From NCBI RefSeq assembly GCF_000196855.1, contig NC_014319.1, forward strand, positions 248,001-312,000: a stretch of 64,000 bases of DNA. The letters run 5' to 3'. The notes under the pieces are model-generated. The model saw only the letters and a list, made by a program, of their open reading frames with translations, had not been told where the DNA came from and made no database searches. Position 1 is the first letter of the stretch. Every line of letters starts with the position of its first letter. Both the position numbers and the translations under genes were made by a program. This document shows, piece after piece, positions 6,285 to 19,447 of the stretch. This DNA is from Leuconostoc gasicomitatum LMG 18811 (GTDB lineage Bacteria > Bacillota > Bacilli > Lactobacillales > Lactobacillaceae).

Positions 6285-6313
6285 TTGACATAATAATGTT
6301 TTTCTATTAGAAT
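6285..6313 (+). promoter_or_regulatory. Promoter of the SUF leader
   Basis: TTGACA (6285-6290), exactly 17 bases, TAGAAT (6308-6313). Transcription should begin near 6320, about 30 bases ahead of the leader-peptide ATG and about 240 bases ahead of the regulator gene. No convincing promoter lies between the last hairpin (ends 6523) and the regulator, so this is the likely start of the SUF transcript. Confidence 0.7.
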
Positions 6314-6348
6314 CAATATATATCATATAAAAAATAGAAGAAAATAAA

Positions 6349-6411
6349 ATGAAAATAACAATAAAAAAATCAAATAATTTTGCCATCGTTAACCTACTGC
6401 TCATCTGTTGA
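6349..6411 (+). CDS. Putative leader peptide of the SUF operon (20 residues)
   Basis: A 20-codon ORF whose tail reads AIVNLLLIC followed by TGA; six of its last nine residues are Ile, Val or Leu, and the last is Cys. Codons Leu16-Leu17 lie inside the 5' arm of the first hairpin, as in amino-acid attenuators. The ribosome site is weak (AGAAG about eight bases upstream of the ATG). It sits about 30 bases after a good promoter and ahead of three hairpins with alternative pairings. This is a prediction from sequence; no homologous leader was looked up. The minus-strand ORF over the same bases has no comparable support. Confidence 0.6.
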   Translation: MKITIKKSNNFAIVNLLLIC

Positions 6412-6526
6412 TTAGTAGGCTAATTTTTGTGACTGTCTACTAAAATTTTTCAATTTAGTGGACAGTTGGTAATGTAGTTAAAAAGTGCAGACCAACTGTG
6501 AAAACAGTTGGTCTGCACTTTTTAAA
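6389..6526 (+). promoter_or_regulatory. Putative transcription attenuator of the SUF operon
   Basis: Three hairpins in series: 6389-6398 with 6414-6423 (one mismatch), 6432-6444 with 6454-6466 (13 pairs), and 6480-6499 with 6504-6523 (20 perfect pairs, GAAA loop, T run). Alternative pairs also exist: 6412-6420 with 6435-6443 (nine pairs, one G-U) and 6462-6470 with 6491-6499 (nine pairs). A ribosome stalled on the Leu codons of the leader would cover segment 1, favour 2:3 and 4:5, and so break the final terminator. This is the classical leader-peptide attenuator logic, inferred from pairing alone. Confidence 0.62.
6480..6526 (+). terminator. Perfect 20-bp terminator hairpin ahead of the SUF regulator
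   Basis: Perfect 20-base arms at 6480-6499 and 6504-6523 around a GAAA tetraloop; the 3' arm ends in five Ts. It stands 34 bases before the regulator ATG, so expression of the regulator and suf genes needs read-through or antitermination unless an unseen promoter exists in that gap. Confidence 0.8.
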
Positions 6527-6557
6527 TAGAAAAATATAAGCTATTAAAGAGGTCAAA

Positions 6558-7400
6558 ATGATTAATGTAGAAAAATTTATTCATACACGCAAACGTTTGA
6601 AAATGTCACAAATGTCACTTTGCATCAATATTTGCACGCAGGCTACTTTGTCTAAATTTGAAAAACATAGACAAGTGCCAGCGGTTGATATTATGATCTT
6701 ACTATGTGAACGCTTAGGATTAACGCTCAACGATATTTTTCCAATTCATGTGACACTAAAAACAACATCTAATGAACAGGTTCTAGCACTTGCCATGAAA
6801 GCGCTGTTTTATCAAAATCTAGTAAAATATCATCAGCTGATGACACAAGTTGACATCGATAACCTACTGGATTCAGAGCAAAGCACTTATCAATTGTTAC
6901 AATATTTTTCATTAGTTTTTTTTCAGAAAAATGATGTAAAAGCAACAAAATTACTCAAAAAAATTGATGTTTCACAATTTAGTCAACTACAACAATTATT
7001 ATTTTATGCGATAACTATCCATTATTATTACCAACAAGGCTTTTTTAATGAAGCAGAAAAAATATTTGATGATGTCTGGCGGCATCAGAAAAACCTAATG
7101 GTAGCAGATAGATCGGGTTTTCAAGCAGCAATAATCTATTTATTAGCACAGTATCAAATGTCGCTTAAAAACTATAAATATGCTATGATGTTGGCAACTT
7201 ATGGAATTAATTTCACAAATGATAGTGATAGCACTTATTTTTTAGAAAATTTATTTTGGTTACTGATAGAAGCTGGCGACATATGGCATAATCAACATTT
7301 TATTGTCAATGAAATGATTAATAATGTCCGTATGATTGCAAAATTTCATAAAAATGAAAGTATGCTGAATAAAATTAATCAGCGAAAAAAGGATATATAA
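6558..7400 (+). CDS. XRE-type regulator with TPR-like C-terminal domain, first gene of the SUF operon
   Basis: A 280-residue protein. Residues 5-60 form an XRE helix-turn-helix (RKRLKMSQMSL...TLSKFEKHRQVP), and the remainder is helical and tetratricopeptide-like, the arrangement of Rgg/PlcR-type regulators. Its only three cysteines (22, 26, 50) all fall in the DNA-binding domain; Cys26 and Cys50 are at sites where this family often has Cys, so metal or redox sensing is only a possibility. The stop codon is one base before the sufC ATG, so it is almost surely co-transcribed and probably regulates the suf genes. The ribosome site is AAGAGGT. The ligand is unknown. Confidence 0.85.
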   Translation: MINVEKFIHTRKRLKMSQMSLCINICTQATLSKFEKHRQVPAVDIMILLCERLGLTLNDIFPIHVTLKTTSNEQVLALAMKALFYQNLVKYHQLMTQVDIDNLLDSEQSTYQLLQYFSLVFFQKNDVKATKLLKKIDVSQFSQLQQLLFYAITIHYYYQQGFFNEAEKIFDDVWRHQKNLMVADRSGFQAAIIYLLAQYQMSLKNYKYAMMLATYGINFTNDSDSTYFLENLFWLLIEAGDIWHNQHFIVNEMINNVRMIAKFHKNESMLNKINQRKKDI

Positions 7401-7401
7401 T

Positions 7402-8202
7402 ATGACAACATTAAAAGTAGATAATTTACATGTTTCGGTGGCAGGTAAAGAAATTTTAAAAGGCCTTGATTTAATTGTTAATACAGGTGAAATACATGCA
7501 ATTATGGGTCCCAATGGTACCGGAAAATCAACGTTATCGCAAACAATTATGGGACATCCCGCATACCAAGTGACCCAAGGCAATATTTACATTGACGGTC
7601 AAAATTTAGCTGAAATGTCAGTTGACGCACGCGCACGCGCGGGATTATTTTTGGCTATGCAGTACCCCTCAGAAATTCAAGGTGTCACTAATACTGAATT
7701 TATGCGTGCGGCAATTAATGCGCGACGCCCTGAAGATGATCAAATTAGTGTGATGTCATTTATTGAAAAGCTAGATGAAAAACGTGAATTTTTGGCTATG
7801 ACTGAAGAAATGGCGGAACGTTATCTAAATGAGGGATTTTCTGGTGGCGAAAAAAAGCGAAATGAAATTTTACAGATGATGATGATTCAACCACAAATTG
7901 CTATTTTGGATGAAATTGATTCTGGATTAGATATTGATGCCTTAAAAGTTGTTTCACGTGGTGTTAATAGTATGCGTTCTAATGAATTCGGGGCACTGAT
8001 GATTACACACTATCAACGTTTGCTTGACTACATTGTACCTGATTTTGTTCATGTGATGATGGACGGTAAAATTGTAAAAACAGGCGATGCCAACTTAGCC
8101 AAAAAATTGGAGGCTGAGGGGTACGCAGGATTGCGAGATGAACTTGGTTTGGATGTTCACCTGACAGACGAAGAAACAAATTCGTATTTTGTGGAGGGTT
8201 AA
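7402..8202 (+). CDS. sufC: Fe-S cluster assembly ATPase SufC
   Basis: A 266-residue ABC-type ATPase of the SufBCD scaffold. Walker A is GPNGTGKST (residues 37-45), the signature is the SufC-specific FSGGEKKRNEILQM, and Walker B is IAILDEIDSGLDIDALK. SufC hydrolyses ATP to drive Fe-S assembly on the SufB-SufD heterodimer in the cytoplasm. It follows the regulator stop by one base and is followed by sufD after one base, giving the order CDSUB usual in Gram-positive SUF operons. N-terminal sequence and length are standard. Confidence 0.97.
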   Translation: MTTLKVDNLHVSVAGKEILKGLDLIVNTGEIHAIMGPNGTGKSTLSQTIMGHPAYQVTQGNIYIDGQNLAEMSVDARARAGLFLAMQYPSEIQGVTNTEFMRAAINARRPEDDQISVMSFIEKLDEKREFLAMTEEMAERYLNEGFSGGEKKRNEILQMMMIQPQIAILDEIDSGLDIDALKVVSRGVNSMRSNEFGALMITHYQRLLDYIVPDFVHVMMDGKIVKTGDANLAKKLEAEGYAGLRDELGLDVHLTDEETNSYFVEG

Positions 8203-8203
8203 T

Positions 8204-9388
8204 ATGGTTGATAATATTGCAATAGCATCTCTACCATTGCCAGAGTTCGCTAAAGTTCGATATAGTGGTTGGCAACTTGATGAGCTGACACCGGCTACAG
8301 AAAATACTAAAACAACTTACTTTCTGAAGAATACTATCAGTGGCATCGAAGTGAGTGGGCAATCCACTACGTATCAACATTTGTCGGAAAATATGATAGC
8401 ACAAGGTGTCATTGTAATGGGCATGAAACAAGCACAGATGGTGTATGGGCCCTTAGTTAATAAACTCATTGGAAGTGTTATTTCAAAACGCGCTGATCGT
8501 TTATCTGCTCAAAACTATGAACAATTTAATACTGGTATATTTGTATATATTCCAGACCAAGTAAAATTTGATGATGTTTTGCATCTCGCATTGAATCATT
8601 TGGCTATGTCAGGTCAAGATTTTGTGGCTCGAATTTTTGTTTGTGTTGGCGCGCATGCGAAAGTTACTATTCTGCAAGAAATGCATACGATTGGTTCTGA
8701 AAAAACAAAGGCCTCTGTGGTAATAGAAGTACTGGCTAATGTTGGTGCACAAGTGACTTACGCTAATATTGATTCTTTAGGGGAACAGACAACTGCATTC
8801 ATTAACCGAGAGGTTCTAGTTAAAGACCATGCTACTGTTGATTGGCAAAATGCGGAATTTAATGATGGCAATGTCGTGATGCGAGTAGCTAGTCAACTAA
8901 ATGGTGAAGGCGCCACATCGCATGCTAATGTCATTGGATTAACGATAAAAAAACAAACGCAAGGCCTAGTTACAACTGTTCTAAATAAAGGCCGACATAC
9001 TGTTGGCCATATTTTTCAACGTGGTGTAATTTTAAATCGCTCAACATTGGTGTTTAATGGTATTGGTCAAATAATTAAAGGCGCCAAGGGATCAGATGCG
9101 CAACAAGAATCACGCGTATTGATGTTATCTCGTCGAGCGAGAGGGGATGCTAATCCGTTATTGCTTATTGATGAAAATGATGTCACAGCAGGGCATGCTG
9201 CTTCTGTGGGCCGTGTGGATGACGAGCAAATGTATTATTTAATGAGTCGTGGCATTAGTGAACGCGTGGCTCGTAAGTTAGTTATTCGTGGCTTTATGGG
9301 AGAGGTTTTAATGAAAATGCCGACTCGGGCAGCCCAACAAAAAGTGATGTCAGAAATAGAAAGAAAGTTACAATATGAAGACGATTAG
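8204..9388 (+). CDS. sufD: Fe-S cluster assembly protein SufD
   Basis: A 394-residue beta-helix protein that pairs with SufB and SufC. The C-terminal half holds the family pattern (HTVGHIFQRGVILNRS, LLIDENDVTAGHAASVGRVDDEQMYYLMSRGI), including the histidine in the AGHAAS motif. An upstream in-frame ATG at 8189 is inside sufC; the start at 8204 is chosen because GGAGGG lies nine bases upstream. The 3' end overlaps the sufS start by 14 bases, indicating coupled translation. Confidence 0.95.
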   Translation: MVDNIAIASLPLPEFAKVRYSGWQLDELTPATENTKTTYFLKNTISGIEVSGQSTTYQHLSENMIAQGVIVMGMKQAQMVYGPLVNKLIGSVISKRADRLSAQNYEQFNTGIFVYIPDQVKFDDVLHLALNHLAMSGQDFVARIFVCVGAHAKVTILQEMHTIGSEKTKASVVIEVLANVGAQVTYANIDSLGEQTTAFINREVLVKDHATVDWQNAEFNDGNVVMRVASQLNGEGATSHANVIGLTIKKQTQGLVTTVLNKGRHTVGHIFQRGVILNRSTLVFNGIGQIIKGAKGSDAQQESRVLMLSRRARGDANPLLLIDENDVTAGHAASVGRVDDEQMYYLMSRGISERVARKLVIRGFMGEVLMKMPTRAAQQKVMSEIERKLQYEDD

Positions 9389-10610
9389 ATCTGATTTTCC
9401 GATTTTAAATCAAAAAATTAATGGTCAACAAATGATTTATTTGGATAGTGCAGCGACGTCACAAAAACCACAAGTTATGATGGATGCCTTGGTTGATTAT
9501 TATCAAAATAATAATTCTAATGTGCATCGTGGTATTTACGAACTCTCACAACGTGCAACTGAGCAATATGAACAAGTTCGTGATAAAGTACAAATGTTTA
9601 TTCATGCAAAAAAAAGAACTGAAATTTTATTTACGCGCGGGACAACTGAATCATTGAATTGGTTGGCAAGCACATATGGTGTTGATCAACTCAAACCAGG
9701 TGATGAAATCCTGTTATCATATATGGAACACCATTCAAATATCGTACCATGGCAACAACTAGCACAACGTGTTGGAGCTAGGTTGAAATACATTACCCTC
9801 AATAATGATGGCACGTTAAATTTAACTGATGCTAAACAAAAAATGACTAACAAAACTAAAATAGTTACCCTGACACATGTTTCTAATGTTTTAGGTGTTG
9901 TTAATCCTATTAAATTGCTCGCCCAAATGGCTCATGAACATGGCGCTATTATGATTGTAGATGGTGCACAATCAGTGCCCCATATGGCAGTCGATGTACA
10001 AGATATGGCTGTTGATTTTTTGGTTTTTTCAGGACATAAAATGTTGGGGCCAACAGGCATTGGTGTCTTATACGGTAAAAGTGAACTACTAGAAAAAATG
10101 ACCCCAGCACAATATGGTGGTGAAATGATTGAACGCGTAAATTTACAGGAAGCCACGTTTCAACCAATACCTTGGCGTTTTGAAGCGGGGACACCAAATA
10201 TTGCCGGTGCTATTGGACTAGGTGCAGCTATTGATTATTTAACTCATATTGGTATGGCTGACGTGACAAAACATGAACATGAATTAGTAGGTTATGCACT
10301 ATCACAACTGACTAAGATGCCGAGAATTACAATTTATGGGCCACAAAATAGCGAGCATCATACAGGTGTGATTGCGTTTAATATGGCTGGCGTGCACGCT
10401 CATGATTTAGCAACAGCGCTGGATCAATTAGGCATAGAAGTACGAGCAGGGCATCATTGTGCGCAGCCTCTTATGAATTACTTAGGTGTTGCAGCAACAG
10501 TGCGTGTGAGTTTCTATCTGTACAATACGCGTGAAGAAATTGACCGATTGATAGATGCGCTTAAAAAAATTAAGGAGTATTTTAACCGTGAGTTTGCACA
10601 ATTTAGATAA
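9375..10610 (+). CDS. sufS: Cysteine desulfurase SufS
   Basis: A 411-residue PLP enzyme that takes sulfur from cysteine to give alanine and an enzyme persulfide. The PLP lysine is Lys222 in SGHKMLGPTG, and the catalytic cysteine is Cys362 in RAGHHCAQPLM, the group II desulfurase pattern (RxGHHCA). The N-terminus (RSDFPILNQKINGQQMIYLDSAATSQKP) is typical. It overlaps sufD by 14 bases and overlaps the start of sufU. Sulfur is expected to pass to SufU encoded next. Confidence 0.97.
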   Translation: MKTIRSDFPILNQKINGQQMIYLDSAATSQKPQVMMDALVDYYQNNNSNVHRGIYELSQRATEQYEQVRDKVQMFIHAKKRTEILFTRGTTESLNWLASTYGVDQLKPGDEILLSYMEHHSNIVPWQQLAQRVGARLKYITLNNDGTLNLTDAKQKMTNKTKIVTLTHVSNVLGVVNPIKLLAQMAHEHGAIMIVDGAQSVPHMAVDVQDMAVDFLVFSGHKMLGPTGIGVLYGKSELLEKMTPAQYGGEMIERVNLQEATFQPIPWRFEAGTPNIAGAIGLGAAIDYLTHIGMADVTKHEHELVGYALSQLTKMPRITIYGPQNSEHHTGVIAFNMAGVHAHDLATALDQLGIEVRAGHHCAQPLMNYLGVAATVRVSFYLYNTREEIDRLIDALKKIKEYFNREFAQFR

Positions 10611-11049
10611 TTTATATCGCCAAACAATCATGTCATATGCGCAGTATCCGCATCATTTTCGACCAATGTTGGGACAAGAAACGTATCATATACAAAAATA
10701 TAATCCAACTTGTGGCGATATAATTGATTTGGCGTTTGATATTGTCGATGATAAAGTAACTGATATTCATTTTTATGGTGATGGTTGTGTGATATCGAAA
10801 GCATCAGCATCTATGATGAGTGATTTGGTATCTGGGAAAACGCGCGCACAAGCCACATTTTTAGTGACAGAATTTTCTAAAATGATGCGTGGTGAGGCAG
10901 CCGATGTTAAGTCTCTTGGTGAACCGCAAATTTTAGCTGGTGTGACAAAGTTTCCAGCGCGTATCAAATGTGCAACACTAGCATGGCATGCTTTAGATGA
11001 ATTATTAGTCATAAAAGATGACAGGAGGTGCGATGATGGAAATAGATAG
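10588..11049 (+). CDS. sufU: Sulfur-transfer protein SufU
   Basis: A 153-residue zinc-containing sulfurtransferase that accepts persulfide from SufS. The three conserved cysteines are Cys42 (NPTCGD), Cys67 (GDGCVIS) and Cys128 (RIKCATLAW), and Asp44 completes the zinc site. The GTG at 10588 is taken as start because TAAGGAG lies about ten bases upstream; a longer frame from 10555 would lie inside sufS with no ribosome site. It overlaps sufS by 23 bases and sufB by 14. Confidence 0.94.
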
Positions 11050-12466
11050 ACAAGAAGCGATTGATAAAACGCGTGCAGCGATTGCAGTTGATAAAGCTAA
11101 AGCGTTAGGTTTTCAAGATGATTATAAGGCAGTATTTTCGACAGGTAAAGGATTAGACGAGGGCATTATTCGTCAAATATCTGCTAAGAAAAACGAGCCA
11201 GAATGGATGCTAAATTATCGGTTACAAGCGTATCAAACATATCTTAATATGCCAATGCATAGTTGGGGACCAGATTTGAGTGACATTCGGTTTGAAGATA
11301 TTTATTATTATAATAAACCAACAAACGATAAGTATCGTGATTGGAATGATGTGCCAATTGAACTAAAAGAAACATTTGAAAGATTAGGTGTACCCGAAGC
11401 AGAACGAAAATGGTTGGCTGGATCTTCCGCACAGTATGAATCAGAAGTGGTGTATCATCGTATGAAAGATGAATTTGCTAAAACAGGGATTATTTTTACT
11501 GATACAGATACGGCAGTGCAAGAGTATCCAGAATTGATGAAAGAATATTTTGGCTCTTTGGTGAAACCAACCAATAATAAACTAGCTGCTTTAAATGCAG
11601 CGGTTTGGTCTGGTGGCACATTTATTTATGTTCCAAAGGGCGTGCACGTTAATACGCCGATTCAATCCTATTTTCGAATAAATACAGAAAATGAAGGACA
11701 ATTTGAACGCACGCTGATTATTGTTGATGAGGGTGCACATGTTGACTATGTTGAAGGTTGCTCAGCACCAATGTATTCTGGAGATGCTTTACATGCTGCC
11801 GTTGTTGAAGTTATTGTCAAAAAAGATGGTTATTGCCGGTACACAACGATCCAAAATTGGTCAAATAATGTGTATTCGTTGGAAACAAAGCGTGCATCTG
11901 CTCATGAAAATGCGACCATGGAGTGGGTCGATGGTAATTTCGGATCGAAAACGACGATGAAATATCCATCAGTTTATTTGAATGGTGAGGGCGCAAAGGG
12001 CACTATGTTGTCAATTGCGGTTGCTGGAGAAGGTGTTAATTTGGATTCTGGTGCACAAATGATCCATAATGCTAAAAATACGTCATCATCTATCATTTCA
12101 AAATCAATTGCCCACGATGGTGGGAAAACAGATTATCGTGGGACGGTCAAGTTTGGCCGTGAATCTGATGGGTCATTTGCCCATGTCGAATGTGACACAA
12201 TTCTGGTTGATGATCAATCATCAGCAGACACAATTCCCTACAACACAATTTTAAACGGCAATGTATCAATGGAACACGAAGCAAAAGTTTCACGTGTTTC
12301 TGAAGAACAACTATATTATTTGATGACACGTGGTATTTCTGCAGAAAAAGCCACAGAAATGATTATCATGGGATTTATTGAACCTTTCACAAAAGAATTA
12401 CCAATGGAATATGCCGTGGAATTAAATCGCTTAATGAAATTTGAAATGATTGGATCGGTGGGGTAA
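11036..12466 (+). CDS. sufB: Fe-S cluster assembly protein SufB
   Basis: About 476 residues, the scaffold subunit on which clusters form. Conserved blocks are visible: [14 protein letters not shown] near residue 42, [38 protein letters not shown] and the C-terminal [25 protein letters not shown] codons occur at 11033 and 11036; AGGAGG at 11023-11028 favours 11036 by spacing, though either could be used. The gene overlaps sufU and is followed after two bases by the DUF59 gene. Confidence 0.96.
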
Positions 12467-12468
12467 AT

Positions 12469-12774
12469 ATGCCAGAAAAAATAGAGAATGACATTATGGC
12501 TATTTTAGAGACAGTGATTGATCCAGAATTAAGAATTGATATTGTTAATCTAGGATTAATTAACTGTGTTGATATCAATGATACTGGTGATGTGATAATA
12601 AATATGACACTGACTACAATGGGTTGTCCGTTAAGTAGTGTGCTAGAAGAAATGATTGATGCAGCATTAACTATCTTACCAGAAGTTAAAACAACCAAAG
12701 TAGTGCTCACATGGGAACCGGCTTGGAAAATTGATAGAATGTCTAGATACGCCAAAATGGCATTAGGGTTATAA
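12469..12774 (+). CDS. DUF59/MIP18-family metal-sulfur cluster assembly factor (SufT-like)
   Basis: A 101-residue protein of the DUF59 family: ETVIDPELRIDIVNLGLI near the N-terminus and TMGCPLSSVLEEMI with the conserved cysteine (Cys53), then VVLTWEPAWKIDRMS. Related proteins (SufT, PaaD-like, yeast Cia2) aid maturation of Fe-S enzymes. It starts two bases after the sufB stop and closes the SUF operon. No clear terminator follows, so some read-through into the leu leader is possible. Confidence 0.9.
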   Translation: MPEKIENDIMAILETVIDPELRIDIVNLGLINCVDINDTGDVIINMTLTTMGCPLSSVLEEMIDAALTILPEVKTTKVVLTWEPAWKIDRMSRYAKMALGL

Positions 12775-12878: not shown

Positions 12879-12962
12879 ATGAGAAATCAGGCTTCAGTAC
12901 AAATGAATAAAACAAATTCAGCCCTTCTCCTCAACTTGCTCAGACAAACCCTAGCAAGTTGA
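12879..12962 (+). CDS. Leucine leader peptide (27 residues)
   Basis: A 27-codon ORF with an AAGGAAA ribosome site. Its tail reads ALLLNLLRQTLAS: six Leu codons in ten (CTT CTC CTC, TTG CTC, CTA). The Leu codons overlap the 5' arm of the first of three hairpins that precede leuA. Leader-peptide attenuation of leu operons is known in enterobacteria and has been described in lactococci. A ribosome stalled for charged tRNA-Leu would change the pairing of the RNA downstream. Confidence 0.88.
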   Translation: MRNQASVQMNKTNSALLLNLLRQTLAS

Positions 12963-13065
12963 GCTTTTAAGCTGGCTGTTAGGTATTTACCTAATGGCTA
13001 GTGAATTAAAGGATGTGCATGCATAATCCCGGACTAGTCAATCTGACTAGTCCGGGATTTTTAAT
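12930..13065 (+). promoter_or_regulatory. Leucine transcription attenuator with terminator
   Basis: Hairpin 1: 12930-12940 with 12953-12963 (11 pairs). Hairpin 2: 12971-12984 with 12989-13002 (14 pairs, several G-U). Hairpin 3, the terminator: 13025-13040 with 13044-13059 followed by Ts. Competing pairs are 12950-12955 with 12978-12983 and 12995-13002 with 13033-13040 (eight pairs, one G-U), the latter able to break the terminator. The leuA ribosome site AGGAGG follows directly. Confidence 0.85.
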
Positions 13066-13079
13066 TTCAGGAGGAAATT

Positions 13080-14252
13080 ATGACAAATAAAGTAACTTTT
13101 TATGATACAACAATGCGTGATGGTGAACAAACGATTGGCGTCAACTTTTCAGTTGAAGAAAAAATTGCTATAGCAAAGGGTTTGGATGACTATGGCGTAT
13201 CAGCAATTGAAGCGGGATTTCCTGCAGCTTCTCAGAAAGATTTTGAAGCAGTGAAAAGTATTGCAGAAGTTGTGAACAAAGCAAAAGTTGTAGGTTTGGC
13301 ACGATTGGTTAGAAATGACATTAATGCGGTAATTGAAGCAACAAAGGGTGCAAAACATCCAATGATTCATGTGTTTATTGCTACATCACCGATTCATCGT
13401 GAATTCAAGCTGCATTTGACCAAAGAAGAAATTTTAGACAAAATCAAAGCAGATGTCGCTTTTACTAAGCAATATATTCAAGACATTGTGTTCTCACCTG
13501 AGGATGCGACACGCACTGAACCTGATTTTTTGGTCGCAAGTGTGCAAACAGCTATTGATGCTGGTGCAACAATGATTAATATTCCAGACACTGTTGGTTA
13601 TGATACGCCAGAAGAATACGGTGAAGTTTTTGAAAATTTGCGTCGAAATATTGTTGGTTTTGACACTGTTGGTTGGTCAACACATACGCATAACGATTTG
13701 GGAATGGCTACGGCAAATGCCTTGGCAGGCATTGCGCATGGTGCAACGGAAATTCAAGGCACAATTAACGGAATCGGCGAACGTGCTGGTAACGTTGACA
13801 TGATTGAAGCAGCAGCGGCTATATATGTTCGTCATGAGAAATTCAATGTTGAAACAGATATTGTCTTGTCACATTCAAAGGCCATTTCCGATATTGTTGC
13901 ACGCGCAACACAGATGCCAGTTGCCAGTAATAAACCAATTATGGGACGAAATGCGTTTGCTCATGAATCTGGTATTCATCAAGATGGGTACTTAAAAAAT
14001 CCAGAAACATATGAAATTTTGAAGCCGGGAATGGTTGGTGCAACGGCATCCCTGCCTTTGGGTAAACTATCAGGCTCACATGCAGTTATGTCAAAACTAA
14101 ATAGTCTAGGATATGATGTGACACGTGATGATATGAAAAATATTTTTCCGATTTTTAAATCAGTTGCAGAAGAGTCGAATTTGGTTACGAATGAACAATT
14201 AAAAATCATTATGCAAGTTGTTGAAGAAAAAGAAATGGTGAGTTATCAATGA
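13080..14252 (+). CDS. leuA: 2-isopropylmalate synthase, short form without C-terminal regulatory domain
   Basis: Condenses acetyl-CoA with 2-ketoisovalerate, the first step of leucine synthesis. The TIM-barrel catalytic domain is complete: DTTMRDGEQT at residues 9-18, the metal motif HTHNDLGMA, and NGIGERAGN, then the linker subdomain with GRNAFAHESGIHQDG. At 390 residues it lacks the roughly 120-residue C-terminal domain that binds leucine in most LeuA proteins of about 510 residues. The ORF ends cleanly and overlaps leuB by four bases, so this is not an obvious frameshift. Homocitrate synthase is an alternative family member, but the leu context decides. Confidence 0.93.
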   Translation: MTNKVTFYDTTMRDGEQTIGVNFSVEEKIAIAKGLDDYGVSAIEAGFPAASQKDFEAVKSIAEVVNKAKVVGLARLVRNDINAVIEATKGAKHPMIHVFIATSPIHREFKLHLTKEEILDKIKADVAFTKQYIQDIVFSPEDATRTEPDFLVASVQTAIDAGATMINIPDTVGYDTPEEYGEVFENLRRNIVGFDTVGWSTHTHNDLGMATANALAGIAHGATEIQGTINGIGERAGNVDMIEAAAAIYVRHEKFNVETDIVLSHSKAISDIVARATQMPVASNKPIMGRNAFAHESGIHQDGYLKNPETYEILKPGMVGATASLPLGKLSGSHAVMSKLNSLGYDVTRDDMKNIFPIFKSVAEESNLVTNEQLKIIMQVVEEKEMVSYQ

Positions 14253-15325
14253 TGACATCAGTAAAAAAAATAGTTGTATTAAGAGGCGACTATATCGGTC
14301 CTGAAATCATGACGGCCGGTTTAGCAGTCTTAGAGGCAGCGACAAGGAATGAAGCATTTGCATATAAACTCATAGACGCACCTTTTGGTGGGGATGGTAT
14401 TGATCGTGCGGGAGATCCATTACCACAGTCAACTATTAATATTGCAAAACAAGCTGATGCGGTGTTACTTAGTGCTATTGGTGGACCTAAATGGGATAAC
14501 ATGTCACGTCGTCCGGAACAGGGACTACTAGAAATCAGATCACAACTTAATTTATTTGCTAATATACGACCAACAAAAGTGACATCAGCACAAATTGATC
14601 GGTCACCATTAAAACCAGAATATGTTAAAAATACGGATTTTGTAATTGTTCGTGAATTGACTTCAGGCGCCTATTTTGGAAAACCACGCAAGCTTGAAGA
14701 ACATCAAGCTATTGATACGATTTATTACAATGAAGAAGAAGTGACGCGAATTATGCATCAAGGCTTTAAAATGGCTCAAAAGCGGAAGAAACATGTCACC
14801 ATTGTGGACAAATCAAACGTATTAGCTACGTCAAAATTCTGGCGAAAAATTGCAAATGAAGTGGGCAAAAATTATCCAGATGTTGCAATTGATTACTATT
14901 ATGTTGACGCAATGACAATGGCTATTATGTCAAAACCTGCAATATTCGATGTTGTGATTATGCCTAATTTGTTTGGGGATATTTTAAGTGATGAAGCAGC
15001 ACAAATCACAGGTTCAATCGGTCAAATACCTTCTATGTCAATTGGCGAAAACGGTCCTAATTTGTATGAACCAATTCATGGCTCAGCACCAGACATTGCG
15101 GGTCAAGGCATAGCGAATCCAATTTCAATGGTAAATACAATAGCTATGATGTTGACAGAAAGTTTTGATGAAAAAAGCATTGCAGATAAAATGACTGCAG
15201 CAGTGAATTATATTATTGAAAATCACTATGTAACACCAGATATGGGTGGCGTGATGACGACCAATGAAGTCACACAAAAAATGGTTGATTACATAAAAAA
15301 ACATGAACTGGCGGCCACAAAATGA
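14249..15325 (+). CDS. leuB: 3-isopropylmalate dehydrogenase
   Basis: A 358-residue NAD-dependent decarboxylating dehydrogenase, third enzyme of leucine synthesis. The N-terminal motif reads [11 protein letters not shown], slightly off the usual PGDGIGPE. The substrate and metal site [19 protein letters not shown] and the NAD-site motif [18 protein letters not shown] are intact. ATG codons at 14249 and 14252 are both possible; the first overlaps the leuA stop (ATGA). The stop overlaps leuC by four bases. Confidence 0.95.
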
Positions 15326-16704
15326 GCAAAACGTTATTTGATAAAATTTGGGAAAAACATGTCATTACAGGGGAGATTGGTGAAGCGCAACTGATATATG
15401 TGGATTTACATTTAATACATGAGGTCACCTCACCTCAGCCTTTTGATGGATTAAGAAATACGAATCGCCGTGTGAGACGACCAGATCTGACTTTTGCAAC
15501 GATGGATCATAACGTCTCAACGAAAGATATATTTAATGTACAAGATCACATGTCACGATTACAGATGGATACGTTAGTTAAAAATACAAAAGAATTTGGT
15601 GTGCCATTGGCATCAATTGGGGATGATAAGCAGGGGATTGTCCATGTTGTGGGACCAGAAAGAGGGCTGACACAACCTGCTAAATTGATTGTTTGTGGTG
15701 ATTCACATACGGCAACTCATGGTGCGTTTGGCGCAATTGCCTTTGGCATTGGTACTTCTGAAGTTGAACATGTATTAGCAACTCAAACGATTTGGCAAGT
15801 TAAACCAAAGACAATGGGAATCAAAGTCACTGGAAAATTGCTCAAAAATACTTATGCAAAAGACATTATTATGGGTATCATTGCTAAATATGGGGTGTCA
15901 TTTGGGGTCGGTTATGCGATTGAATTTTACGGAGAAACTGTTGAGAACCTTTCAATGGAGGCCCGTATGACGATGTGTAATATGTCAATTGAAGCTGGTT
16001 CAAGAACTGGTATGGTGCAACCAGATCAAACGACATTTGATTACATTGAAGGCCGTGAACAAGCACCAAAAGACTTTGAAGCTGCTAAAAATTATTGGTT
16101 ACAATTCTACACAGATGATGAAAGTGATTTTGATGAGACGCTAACTTTTGACGTATCAAATTTGAAACCGATGGTAACATGGGGAACAAATCCAGGCATG
16201 GCAACACCTGTTGATCAATCGTTACCAGCAATCAAAGATGATAATGATGCCAATGCCAATGCCTATGAATATATTGGATTGCATCCCCATATGAAGGCAA
16301 CTGACATTAATTTGGATTACATCTTCATCGGTTCCTGTACGAATAGTCGTTACGAAGATCTAGAAATTGCTGCAAACATGATGAAAGGGCATCACTTAGC
16401 GCCTAATGTTACCGCTTGGATAGTGCCCGGCAGTCGGGCAATTCGAAATCGAGCAATTAAATCGGGAATTGCCAAAATATTTGAAGACGCAGGGTGTGAG
16501 TGGCGTGAACCAGGATGTTCAGCATGCTTAGCTATGAATCCAGATAAAATTCCAGCGGGAAAGCATGTTGCTTCAACATCAAACAGGAATTTCATTGGCC
16601 GGCAAGGTGCAGGGTCCAGAACACACTTAGCCTCTCCAGCTATGGTTGCTGCAGCAGGCATAGCTGGCTATTTCGTTGATATTACAGTAGATGAATTTGT
16701 ATAG
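15322..16704 (+). CDS. leuC: 3-isopropylmalate dehydratase large subunit
   Basis: A 460-residue aconitase-family protein that with LeuD isomerises 2- to 3-isopropylmalate. The [4Fe-4S] ligands are Cys339 ([13 protein letters not shown]), Cys399 and Cys402 ([13 protein letters not shown]). Other landmarks are HNVST and [13 protein letters not shown]. This enzyme depends on Fe-S assembly, and the SUF operon lies just upstream. It overlaps leuB by four bases and is followed after 12 bases by leuD. Confidence 0.96.
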
Positions 16705-16716
16705 GGGAATAATAGT

Positions 16717-17301
16717 ATGGAAGCTTTTGTAAGAGAGACAGGTCGGGCGGTTGTTATTCCAAATGATAACATCAATACTGACATTATCTTGCCTAAACAA
16801 TTTTTAAAAAATATTTTAAAAACAGGATTTGGGAAAGATTTATTTTACGATTGGCGTTACAATGCCGACGGTTCGTTGAATGAAGCATTTGAACTGAATA
16901 AGCCAGAGCATAAGTGTGCCTCAATTCTAGTTACAGGAAATGATTTTGGATCCGGATCATCACGAGAACATGCGGTATGGGCGTTGACAGATTATGGTTT
17001 TAGAGCAGTAATTGGCGGCGGATTTTCAGATATCTTTTACATGAATGCAACCAAAAACGGCTTGTTACCAATTGTTTTACCAGAAGAAAATCGTCGAATA
17101 TTACGTAGCATTCAGGCCGATGAATATATTCAAATTGATTTGCCTAAGCAAACTGTAACTTATAACGATGATATTTTCCATTTTAATATCAATTCACAAT
17201 GGAAAGAAAAATTTATTAATGGTGAAGATGATATTGATAATACGATGAAGTATGAAAAATTAATTACTGCCTTTGAAAAGCAACGGTCAATTTTTTTATA
17301 G
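16717..17301 (+). CDS. leuD: 3-isopropylmalate dehydratase small subunit
   Basis: A 194-residue swivel-domain subunit with [12 protein letters not shown] near the N-terminus and the substrate loop [13 protein letters not shown]. It pairs with LeuC. AGGGGAA stands about nine bases before the ATG. It is the last leu gene, giving the order leuABCD; no distinct terminator is seen after it. Confidence 0.96.
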
Positions 17302-18261: not shown

Positions 18262-18341
18262 TTGACGATATTTTATGATCTAAAAAAGATGTAAAAGGAC
18301 ATTTTTTGTACGTTAAGGACATGTTTTGTTCAAAAAATGTC
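18262..18341 (+). promoter_or_regulatory. Promoter and repeat cluster upstream of the Ni/Co transporter gene
   Basis: TTGACG at 18262-18267 is a candidate -35. Downstream are a direct repeat (AAGGACAT-TTTTTGT and AAGGACAT-GTTTTGT, 21 bases apart) and a perfect 11-base inverted repeat, GACATTTTTTG (18298-18308) and CAAAAAATGTC (18331-18341). These could be a repressor operator or an RNA hairpin. The regulator is unknown. Confidence 0.4.
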
Positions 18342-18394
18342 TATCACGTCACGAACATGATAATCTACTATTAGACAATACGAGGAGAAAATTT

Positions 18395-19447
18395 ATGATG
18401 TTGATGACAAAAAAACACGCGACAATTCAGGCCGATGCTTTACGCTATGGGAGCGTTATTCTGATTTTTTTAATAGCTGGCATACTTTTATTGCTGACTC
18501 GTGCAGCACAGTATCCTGAAATGATTGCGATGGCTTATTTGTCGTTTACAATGGGTTTACATCATGCGTTTGACGTTGATCATATTGCAGCTATTGATAA
18601 TATGACACGTAAAATGCTTAATGATGGTAAAAATACAAGGGGTGTGGGTTTCAGTTTTTCATTTGGACATTCAATGGTTGTGGTGTTAATGGCCTTGTTA
18701 ACGGTAGTATTTGTTGAATGGGCTAAGGATACTATGCCCGTTTTTGAGCAAATCGGTGGGGCCATCGGTACGTTGATTGCAGGAATTATGTTACTCATAT
18801 TGGCTAGTGTTAATAGTGTTATTTTACATGATATCTGGTTGAAATTTAAGCAGATGAGCCATCAACATCCCGAACACATTGAAATTGATAAACAGATAGT
18901 GACATCTAAAATCTATCGCTTATTTTTAAAATTATTAGGAATGATTAAACATAATTGGCAAGTAGCTTTTGTTGGCTTTTTATTTGGCTTGGGATTTGAT
19001 ACGGCAACACAAATTGCAGTGTTGGCAACATCGGCTACCGCAGCAAATGCAGGTGTACCGTGGTATGCAACAATGGCTTTTCCGTTGTTATTTACTGCTG
19101 GTATGTGTTTAATGGATACGGTAGACGGCTTTTTTATGAGTACCACCTATAATTGGGTATTTTCATCACCCTATCGTAAAGTTTATTATAATTTAACGAT
19201 TACCGGCATTTCTATATTAGCAGCTGGCTTTATTGGCTTTATTGATTTGGTGCAGTCATTTAGCGCTATGTTTGATTGGCACAATGTATTGACACACTGG
19301 GTAGCAGCTTTAGACTTTAATAAAATGGGGTTAATCTTGGTCATGATGTTTGTAGTGACTTGGATAATTGCTATCACATTTTGGCACATTTTTAAATTAG
19401 CTGATAAAGAGGATGTGGGCATCATAACTGAAAATCGGGGCAAATAA
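18395..19447 (+). CDS. Nickel/cobalt permease of the NiCoT family
   Basis: A 350-residue polytopic membrane protein with the NiCoT signature HAFDVDHIAAIDN in the second helix (HX4DH), FGHSMVVV, GFDTATQIAVLA and LFTAGMCLMDTVDG, all expected metal-path motifs. It takes up Ni2+ or Co2+ as a secondary transporter; sequence alone does not tell which. A longer frame begins at 18326, but GAGGAG at 18382-18387 supports ATG 18395. No nickel enzyme is encoded in the window. Confidence 0.92.
   Translation: MMLMTKKHATIQADALRYGSVILIFLIAGILLLLTRAAQYPEMIAMAYLSFTMGLHHAFDVDHIAAIDNMTRKMLNDGKNTRGVGFSFSFGHSMVVVLMALLTVVFVEWAKDTMPVFEQIGGAIGTLIAGIMLLILASVNSVILHDIWLKFKQMSHQHPEHIEIDKQIVTSKIYRLFLKLLGMIKHNWQVAFVGFLFGLGFDTATQIAVLATSATAANAGVPWYATMAFPLLFTAGMCLMDTVDGFFMSTTYNWVFSSPYRKVYYNLTITGISILAAGFIGFIDLVQSFSAMFDWHNVLTHWVAALDFNKMGLILVMMFVVTWIIAITFWHIFKLADKEDVGIITENRGK

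Follow-up and report, generated by a model that had tools for sequence, protein, structure and literature searches.

Iron, oxygen and the demand for clusters normally govern iron-sulfur cluster assembly via SufR, IscR or Fur, and operons under such control carry the same genes as the SUF operon of Leuconostoc gasicomitatum LMG 18811. Those operons answer to Fe-S- or iron-sensing repressors, whereas the DNA in front of the Leuconostoc operon raises the question of whether amino acid supply could be the signal, read through a leader peptide. The window analysed here is the whole stretch of 64,000 nucleotides on contig NC_014319.1 (positions 248,001 to 312,000), from a genome close to those of L. 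gelidum and L. inhae. The leader comprises the following elements.

6285..6313, + strand: sigma-70 type promoter, TTGACA-17-TAGAAT (promoter scan)
6349..6411, + strand: leader ORF of 20 codons, MKITIKKSNNFAIVNLLLIC, with Leu codons CTA CTG CTC at 6394-6402
6393..6398, + strand: segment 1 (CCTACT), partner of segment 2 and largely within the Leu codons
6412..6420, + strand: segment 2 (TTAGTAGGC), partner of segment 1 or 3
6432..6444, + strand: segment 3, partner of segment 2 (via 6435-6443) or 4
6454..6470, + strand: segment 4, partner of segment 3 (via 6454-6466) or 5 (via 6462-6470)
6480..6523, + strand: segments 5 and 6, an intrinsic terminator of 20 perfect pairs with a GAAA loop (folding; strong covariation)

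An earlier note on this DNA had described much of this arrangement, and its description was reproduced exactly. The promoter lies exactly where it was placed, with 11 of 12 matches and the best score in the region, and the 20-codon ORF, which ends in TGA at 6409-6411, has Leu at codons 16 and 17 as claimed and likewise at codon 18. The six segments can pair as 1:2, 3:4 and 5:6 or as 2:3 and 4:5, in agreement with the note base for base, including the nine pairs each of 2:3 and 4:5 and the perfect 20-bp terminator. The two halves of the terminator (6480-6499 and 6504-6523) include a U-tract and are located 5' of the first structural gene; a simple terminator scan of the window did not report this hairpin, probably because the U-tract sits within the stem. 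The leader as a whole folds far more stably than its dinucleotide shuffles (z = -9.05 and -9.8).

Behind the leader are the regulator gene and sufCDSUB, as had been stated, and the operon also includes a sufT-like gene. On its 3' side are leuABCD and genes for a YciO-like protein and a NicO transporter.

6558..7400, + strand: RRNPP (PlcR/Rgg-like) HTH regulator, which opens the operon (HTH_3 in 14 of 15 orthologues; best PDB match PlcR)
7402..8202, + strand: sufC (TIGR01978)
8204..9388, + strand: sufD (TIGR01981)
9375..10610, + strand: sufS (TIGR01979)
10630..11049, + strand: sufU (TIGR01994)
11036..12466, + strand: sufB (TIGR01980)
12469..12774, + strand: sufT-like MIP18/DUF59 protein (PF01883; TIGR02945 below cut-off)
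12879..13062, + strand: second Leu attenuator, 5' of leuA (ORF and terminator; in 16 of 16 syntenic loci)
13080..17301, + strand: leuABCD (profile matches; LeuCD is a 4Fe-4S enzyme)

The sufC gene starts one base past the regulator stop codon in the window, implying co-transcription. The leuA leader, a classic Leu leader absent from the note, has its ORF, MRNQASVQMNKTNSALLLNLLRQTLAS, at 12879-12962 and its terminator at about 13026-13062. In the regulator and its orthologues Cys26 and Cys50 are invariant, and these residues might act as thiol or cluster-state sensors.

The leader is very probably a Leu-sensing, ribosome-mediated transcription attenuator of the regulator-sufCDSUB-sufT operon, a reading based on anatomy, conservation, codon selection, covariation, synteny and co-occurrence. 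Transcription would start just past 6313, and a ribosome would translate the 20-codon leader. As long as charged tRNA-Leu suffices, the ribosome would reach the stop codon (6409) and cover segment 2, allowing 3:4 to pair, which would leave segment 5 free to form the 5:6 terminator and end transcription near 6523. When Leu is short, the ribosome would stall on 6394-6402 with segment 2 exposed, such that 2:3 and then 4:5 could form, 5:6 would be precluded and RNA polymerase would continue into SUF; read-through upon Leu starvation is thus predicted. In the event of no translation, 1:2, 3:4 and 5:6 would form, making the default state off. SUF would in this way be made alongside its neighbour leuABCD, whose LeuCD product needs a 4Fe-4S cluster.

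Of the 19 Leuconostoc genomes searched, 17 bear SUF, and every one of these 17 has the leader anatomy 5' of the operon; 16 of them contributed to the leader alignment. The promoter with its 17-nt spacer precedes the leader ORF in 16/16 aligned genomes, and the order regulator-sufCDSUB-sufT, leu leader, leuABCD is kept in each of the 16 complete loci. A chance origin of the layout can be ruled out, as the same arrangement stands before the same operon in these relatives. Frame 0 of the leader is open in all 16 sequences, compared with none for frame 1 and two for frame 2; the frameshifted leader ORFs that the note had suggested looking for in relatives do not occur.

The note had left the sensed amino acid as a choice among Leu, Ile, Val and Cys, and the codons largely settle this in favour of Leu. 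In most of the 16 leaders two critical Leu codons precede the segment-2 core by 21 and 18 nt, the four outliers having distances of 18/15 (two genomes), 20/14 and 17/14; relative to this core the leader stop codon falls at 9 to -1 nt. Such spacing would provide the geometry needed for a stall that leaves segment 2 free and a release that covers it. The two critical codons have CT at bases 1-2 in nearly all aligned leaders, all four nucleotides occur at their third bases (columns 51 and 54), and in 6 of the 16 leaders this variation abolishes pair 51:71 of helix 1:2, which argues for selection on Leu coding and not on pairing alone. Within the last ten codons, Leu accounts for 51 of 160 residues and 49 of these 51 codons are CUN, as compared with 28% CUN among the Leu codons of the window genes, although the relatedness of the genomes means that the leaders do not count as independent observations. 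A particular choice of synonymous codons is expected of sensitive attenuators (PMC1183508).

The same ten codons include 31 Ile and 11 Val residues of 160, and since Ile is well above its 7% background, a broader branched-chain signal, in which Ile or Val would also be sensed through the Ile/Val-rich run around the Leu codons, stands as a rival. This appears quite unlikely, as the positions of Ile and Val differ between leaders (INLLLR, SARLLMKD, NLLIS), the stalling zone of some leaders has hardly any of either, and IlvD is absent from 13 of the 19 genomes. The expected conservation of Leu/Ile/Val-rich codons holds for Leu, which is common to 16/16 leaders at a nearly fixed distance, but not for Ile and Val. 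Leu is preferred as the signal because its codons alone are shared by all leaders and because leuABCD, with a Leu attenuator of its own, is directly downstream.

In the terminator conformation, 88% of alignment cells are paired and 13 pairs have changes on both sides among the SUF leaders. For 2:3 and 4:5 together, 93.7-93.9% of cells are paired, with only three double-change cells within the SUF leaders alone. As this was too thin to judge covariation, the alignment was enlarged with paralogous NicO leaders plus one from Fructobacillus, and it then has 11 double-change cells in 2:3 and 4:5; neither these double changes nor the covariation score was reached by any of 500 shuffles. Covariation in these pairings, which the note had proposed as a check, is therefore present, though only once paralogous leaders are included. 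Base 92 in segment 3 co-changes both with base 75 in 2:3 (C-G, U-G, U-A) and with base 123 in 3:4 (G-C, A-U), as expected if both exclusive pairings matter. Taken together, conservation, Leu codons and covariation support the trp/leu-type logic that the note had read in the leader.

A more ordinary explanation is a constitutive premature terminator with a chance ORF, or another RNA regulator such as a T-box, riboswitch or protein-dependent antiterminator. The ribosome sites, weak in some leaders, would fit it: Shine-Dalgarno pairing of the leader ORF averages -4.0 kcal/mol, being good in several relatives and weak in the source genome, as the note had judged, and at -2.5 kcal/mol in the gelidum group it is comparable to that of random ATGs. 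Rfam searches of the leader at gathering and permissive scores, however, found no T-box, no Leu leader (RF00512) and no other known leader, the best weak matches being chance-like. Moreover, the ORF frame, the Leu codons and the mutually exclusive pairs are all conserved, making this explanation highly improbable.

No clean two-state switch emerged when the leaders were folded at equilibrium with the ribosome masked. In the stalled state, 3:4 was favoured in most species, with a mean P(2:3) of 0.24-0.32, and saddle-barrier estimates were therefore used, which are approximate as to path. With only segments 1-3 transcribed, P(2:3) was 0.68-1.0 in 15 of 16 leaders, and the estimated barriers from 2:3 to 3:4 were about 7-17 kcal/mol; in one genome (G006) P(2:3) was 0 both here and in masked equilibrium. 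Because equilibrium favours 3:4, the switch must be kinetic, and we infer a folding order that protects 2:3. Attenuators of the trp type normally work under kinetic control.

Comparison beyond the syntenic loci bears on what the attenuator serves. The L. fallax genome includes the regulator and SUF, and neither a LeuC match nor the SUF leader was found in it. In sister genera SUF adjoins leu and a leader is present 5' of leuA, but no SUF leader was found and no regulator precedes sufC either. Fructobacillus (G089, L058) has a degenerate leader at the head of the regulator and a lone sufT-like gene, away from the SUF-leu locus. Given L. fallax and the sister genera, the SUF leader seems to go with leucine synthesis and with the form of the operon that begins with the regulator. 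The leader could instead mainly serve the RRNPP regulator gene, with SUF carried along or transcribed from an internal promoter of its own and Leu control of Fe-S assembly indirect or minor; that the leader travels with the regulator, including to the Fructobacillus locus, and that sister genera have neither before sufC, would be accounted for. We consider this fairly unlikely, as the regulator and sufC are a single base apart in the window, their order is kept in 16/16 loci, the L. fallax regulator stays with SUF where the leader is absent, and similar leaders precede NicO without any regulator.

SufB and LeuC are both present in 17 and both absent in two of the 19 genus genomes. IlvD, found in six of them, was rejected as the linked cluster client in the source genome, where the gene is absent, and radical-SAM matches are single and weak; LeuCD is for these reasons probably a main client. 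In Staphylococcus aureus, SufT loss lowers LeuCD activity (PMC4982691). Across the family, SufB occurs in 298 of 398 genomes and LeuC in 98 of 398, a one-sided co-occurrence indicating that outside Leuconostoc SUF is no leucine-only system.

The NicO (nickel/cobalt-type) transporter gene at 18326-19447 of the window, 3' of leuABCD, is present in exactly those 17 genomes with SUF and LeuC, and in eight relatives it is preceded by a SUF-type Leu leader (e.g. MNKTIKKMNYSLLYLLLS). NicO may supply metal for LeuCD. A tandem repeat, AAAGGACATTTTTTGT..TAAGGACATGTTTTGTTC, found 5' of NicO at about 18295-18332 and also before NicO in several relatives, resembles a binding site for a protein. Two copies of NicO occur in G014 (L160 2854-3021 and L226): one, beside ilvD, follows an intact SUF-type leader, and the leader of the other has decayed and shows no clear ORF.

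Further leader peptides were seen elsewhere. Another Leu attenuator (MIKAFYKQVNSALLLNLLLI) precedes a PTS_EIIC_2-like membrane protein, a candidate leucine transporter, at G000:C1:1302274-1302454, and this type (L158, L162-L164, L145-L149) also occurs in G010 and G011 (no LeuC) and in L. fallax. Ile-rich leader peptides (e.g. MTNSTFKLNTIITRVIIII, MRNFSGTTTQIIISIIIIK) with hairpins lie 5' of transporter-like genes in other Lactobacillaceae (L151, L153-L155, L157), and L152 has a leader peptide rich in Cys (MMKSEMQIECCMPCCSKNNMIICVSANCNYFSPTFA) together with a terminator, a possible Cys attenuator.

The closest known systems share the plan of the SUF leader and differ in target. The leuL attenuator of Salmonella and E. 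coli (RF00512) likewise combines a short ORF, in which rare CUN Leu codons follow one another, with mutually exclusive hairpins and a terminator before the structural genes, but it controls leuABCD, and its sequence is unrelated, giving no Rfam match. The S. aureus ilv-leu operon has a Leu-rich attenuator with a reporter that responds to Leu (PMC5794164); this is also a Gram-positive, Leu-sensing leader peptide with a terminator/antiterminator choice, yet it governs branched-chain amino acid synthesis itself and not SUF. The neighbouring leuA attenuator (12879-13062) shares the Leu-rich leader (SALLLNLLRQTLAS), the hairpin plan and the same 16 loci, but controls leuABCD and differs in sequence, scoring 24.5 bits with the SUF-leader model. 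No earlier report of a leader-peptide attenuator for SUF was found in the open-access PMC literature searched; as far as those papers show, the mechanism is known and the Fe-S assembly operon as its target is new.

Leuconostoc SUF might now be dedicated mainly to leucine synthesis, with the separate Leu attenuators on SUF, leuABCD and, in several species, NicO forming one leucine regulon of metal uptake, assembly and client, a tentative proposal for which we stop just short of even confidence. The genome set permits the presence and absence of the switch to be compared with that of LeuC. If the SUF attenuator operates as proposed, the cell would sense the demand of one client pathway by way of tRNA-Leu charging, and Leuconostoc would offer a simple, testable case of cofactor assembly wired to the end product of its client.
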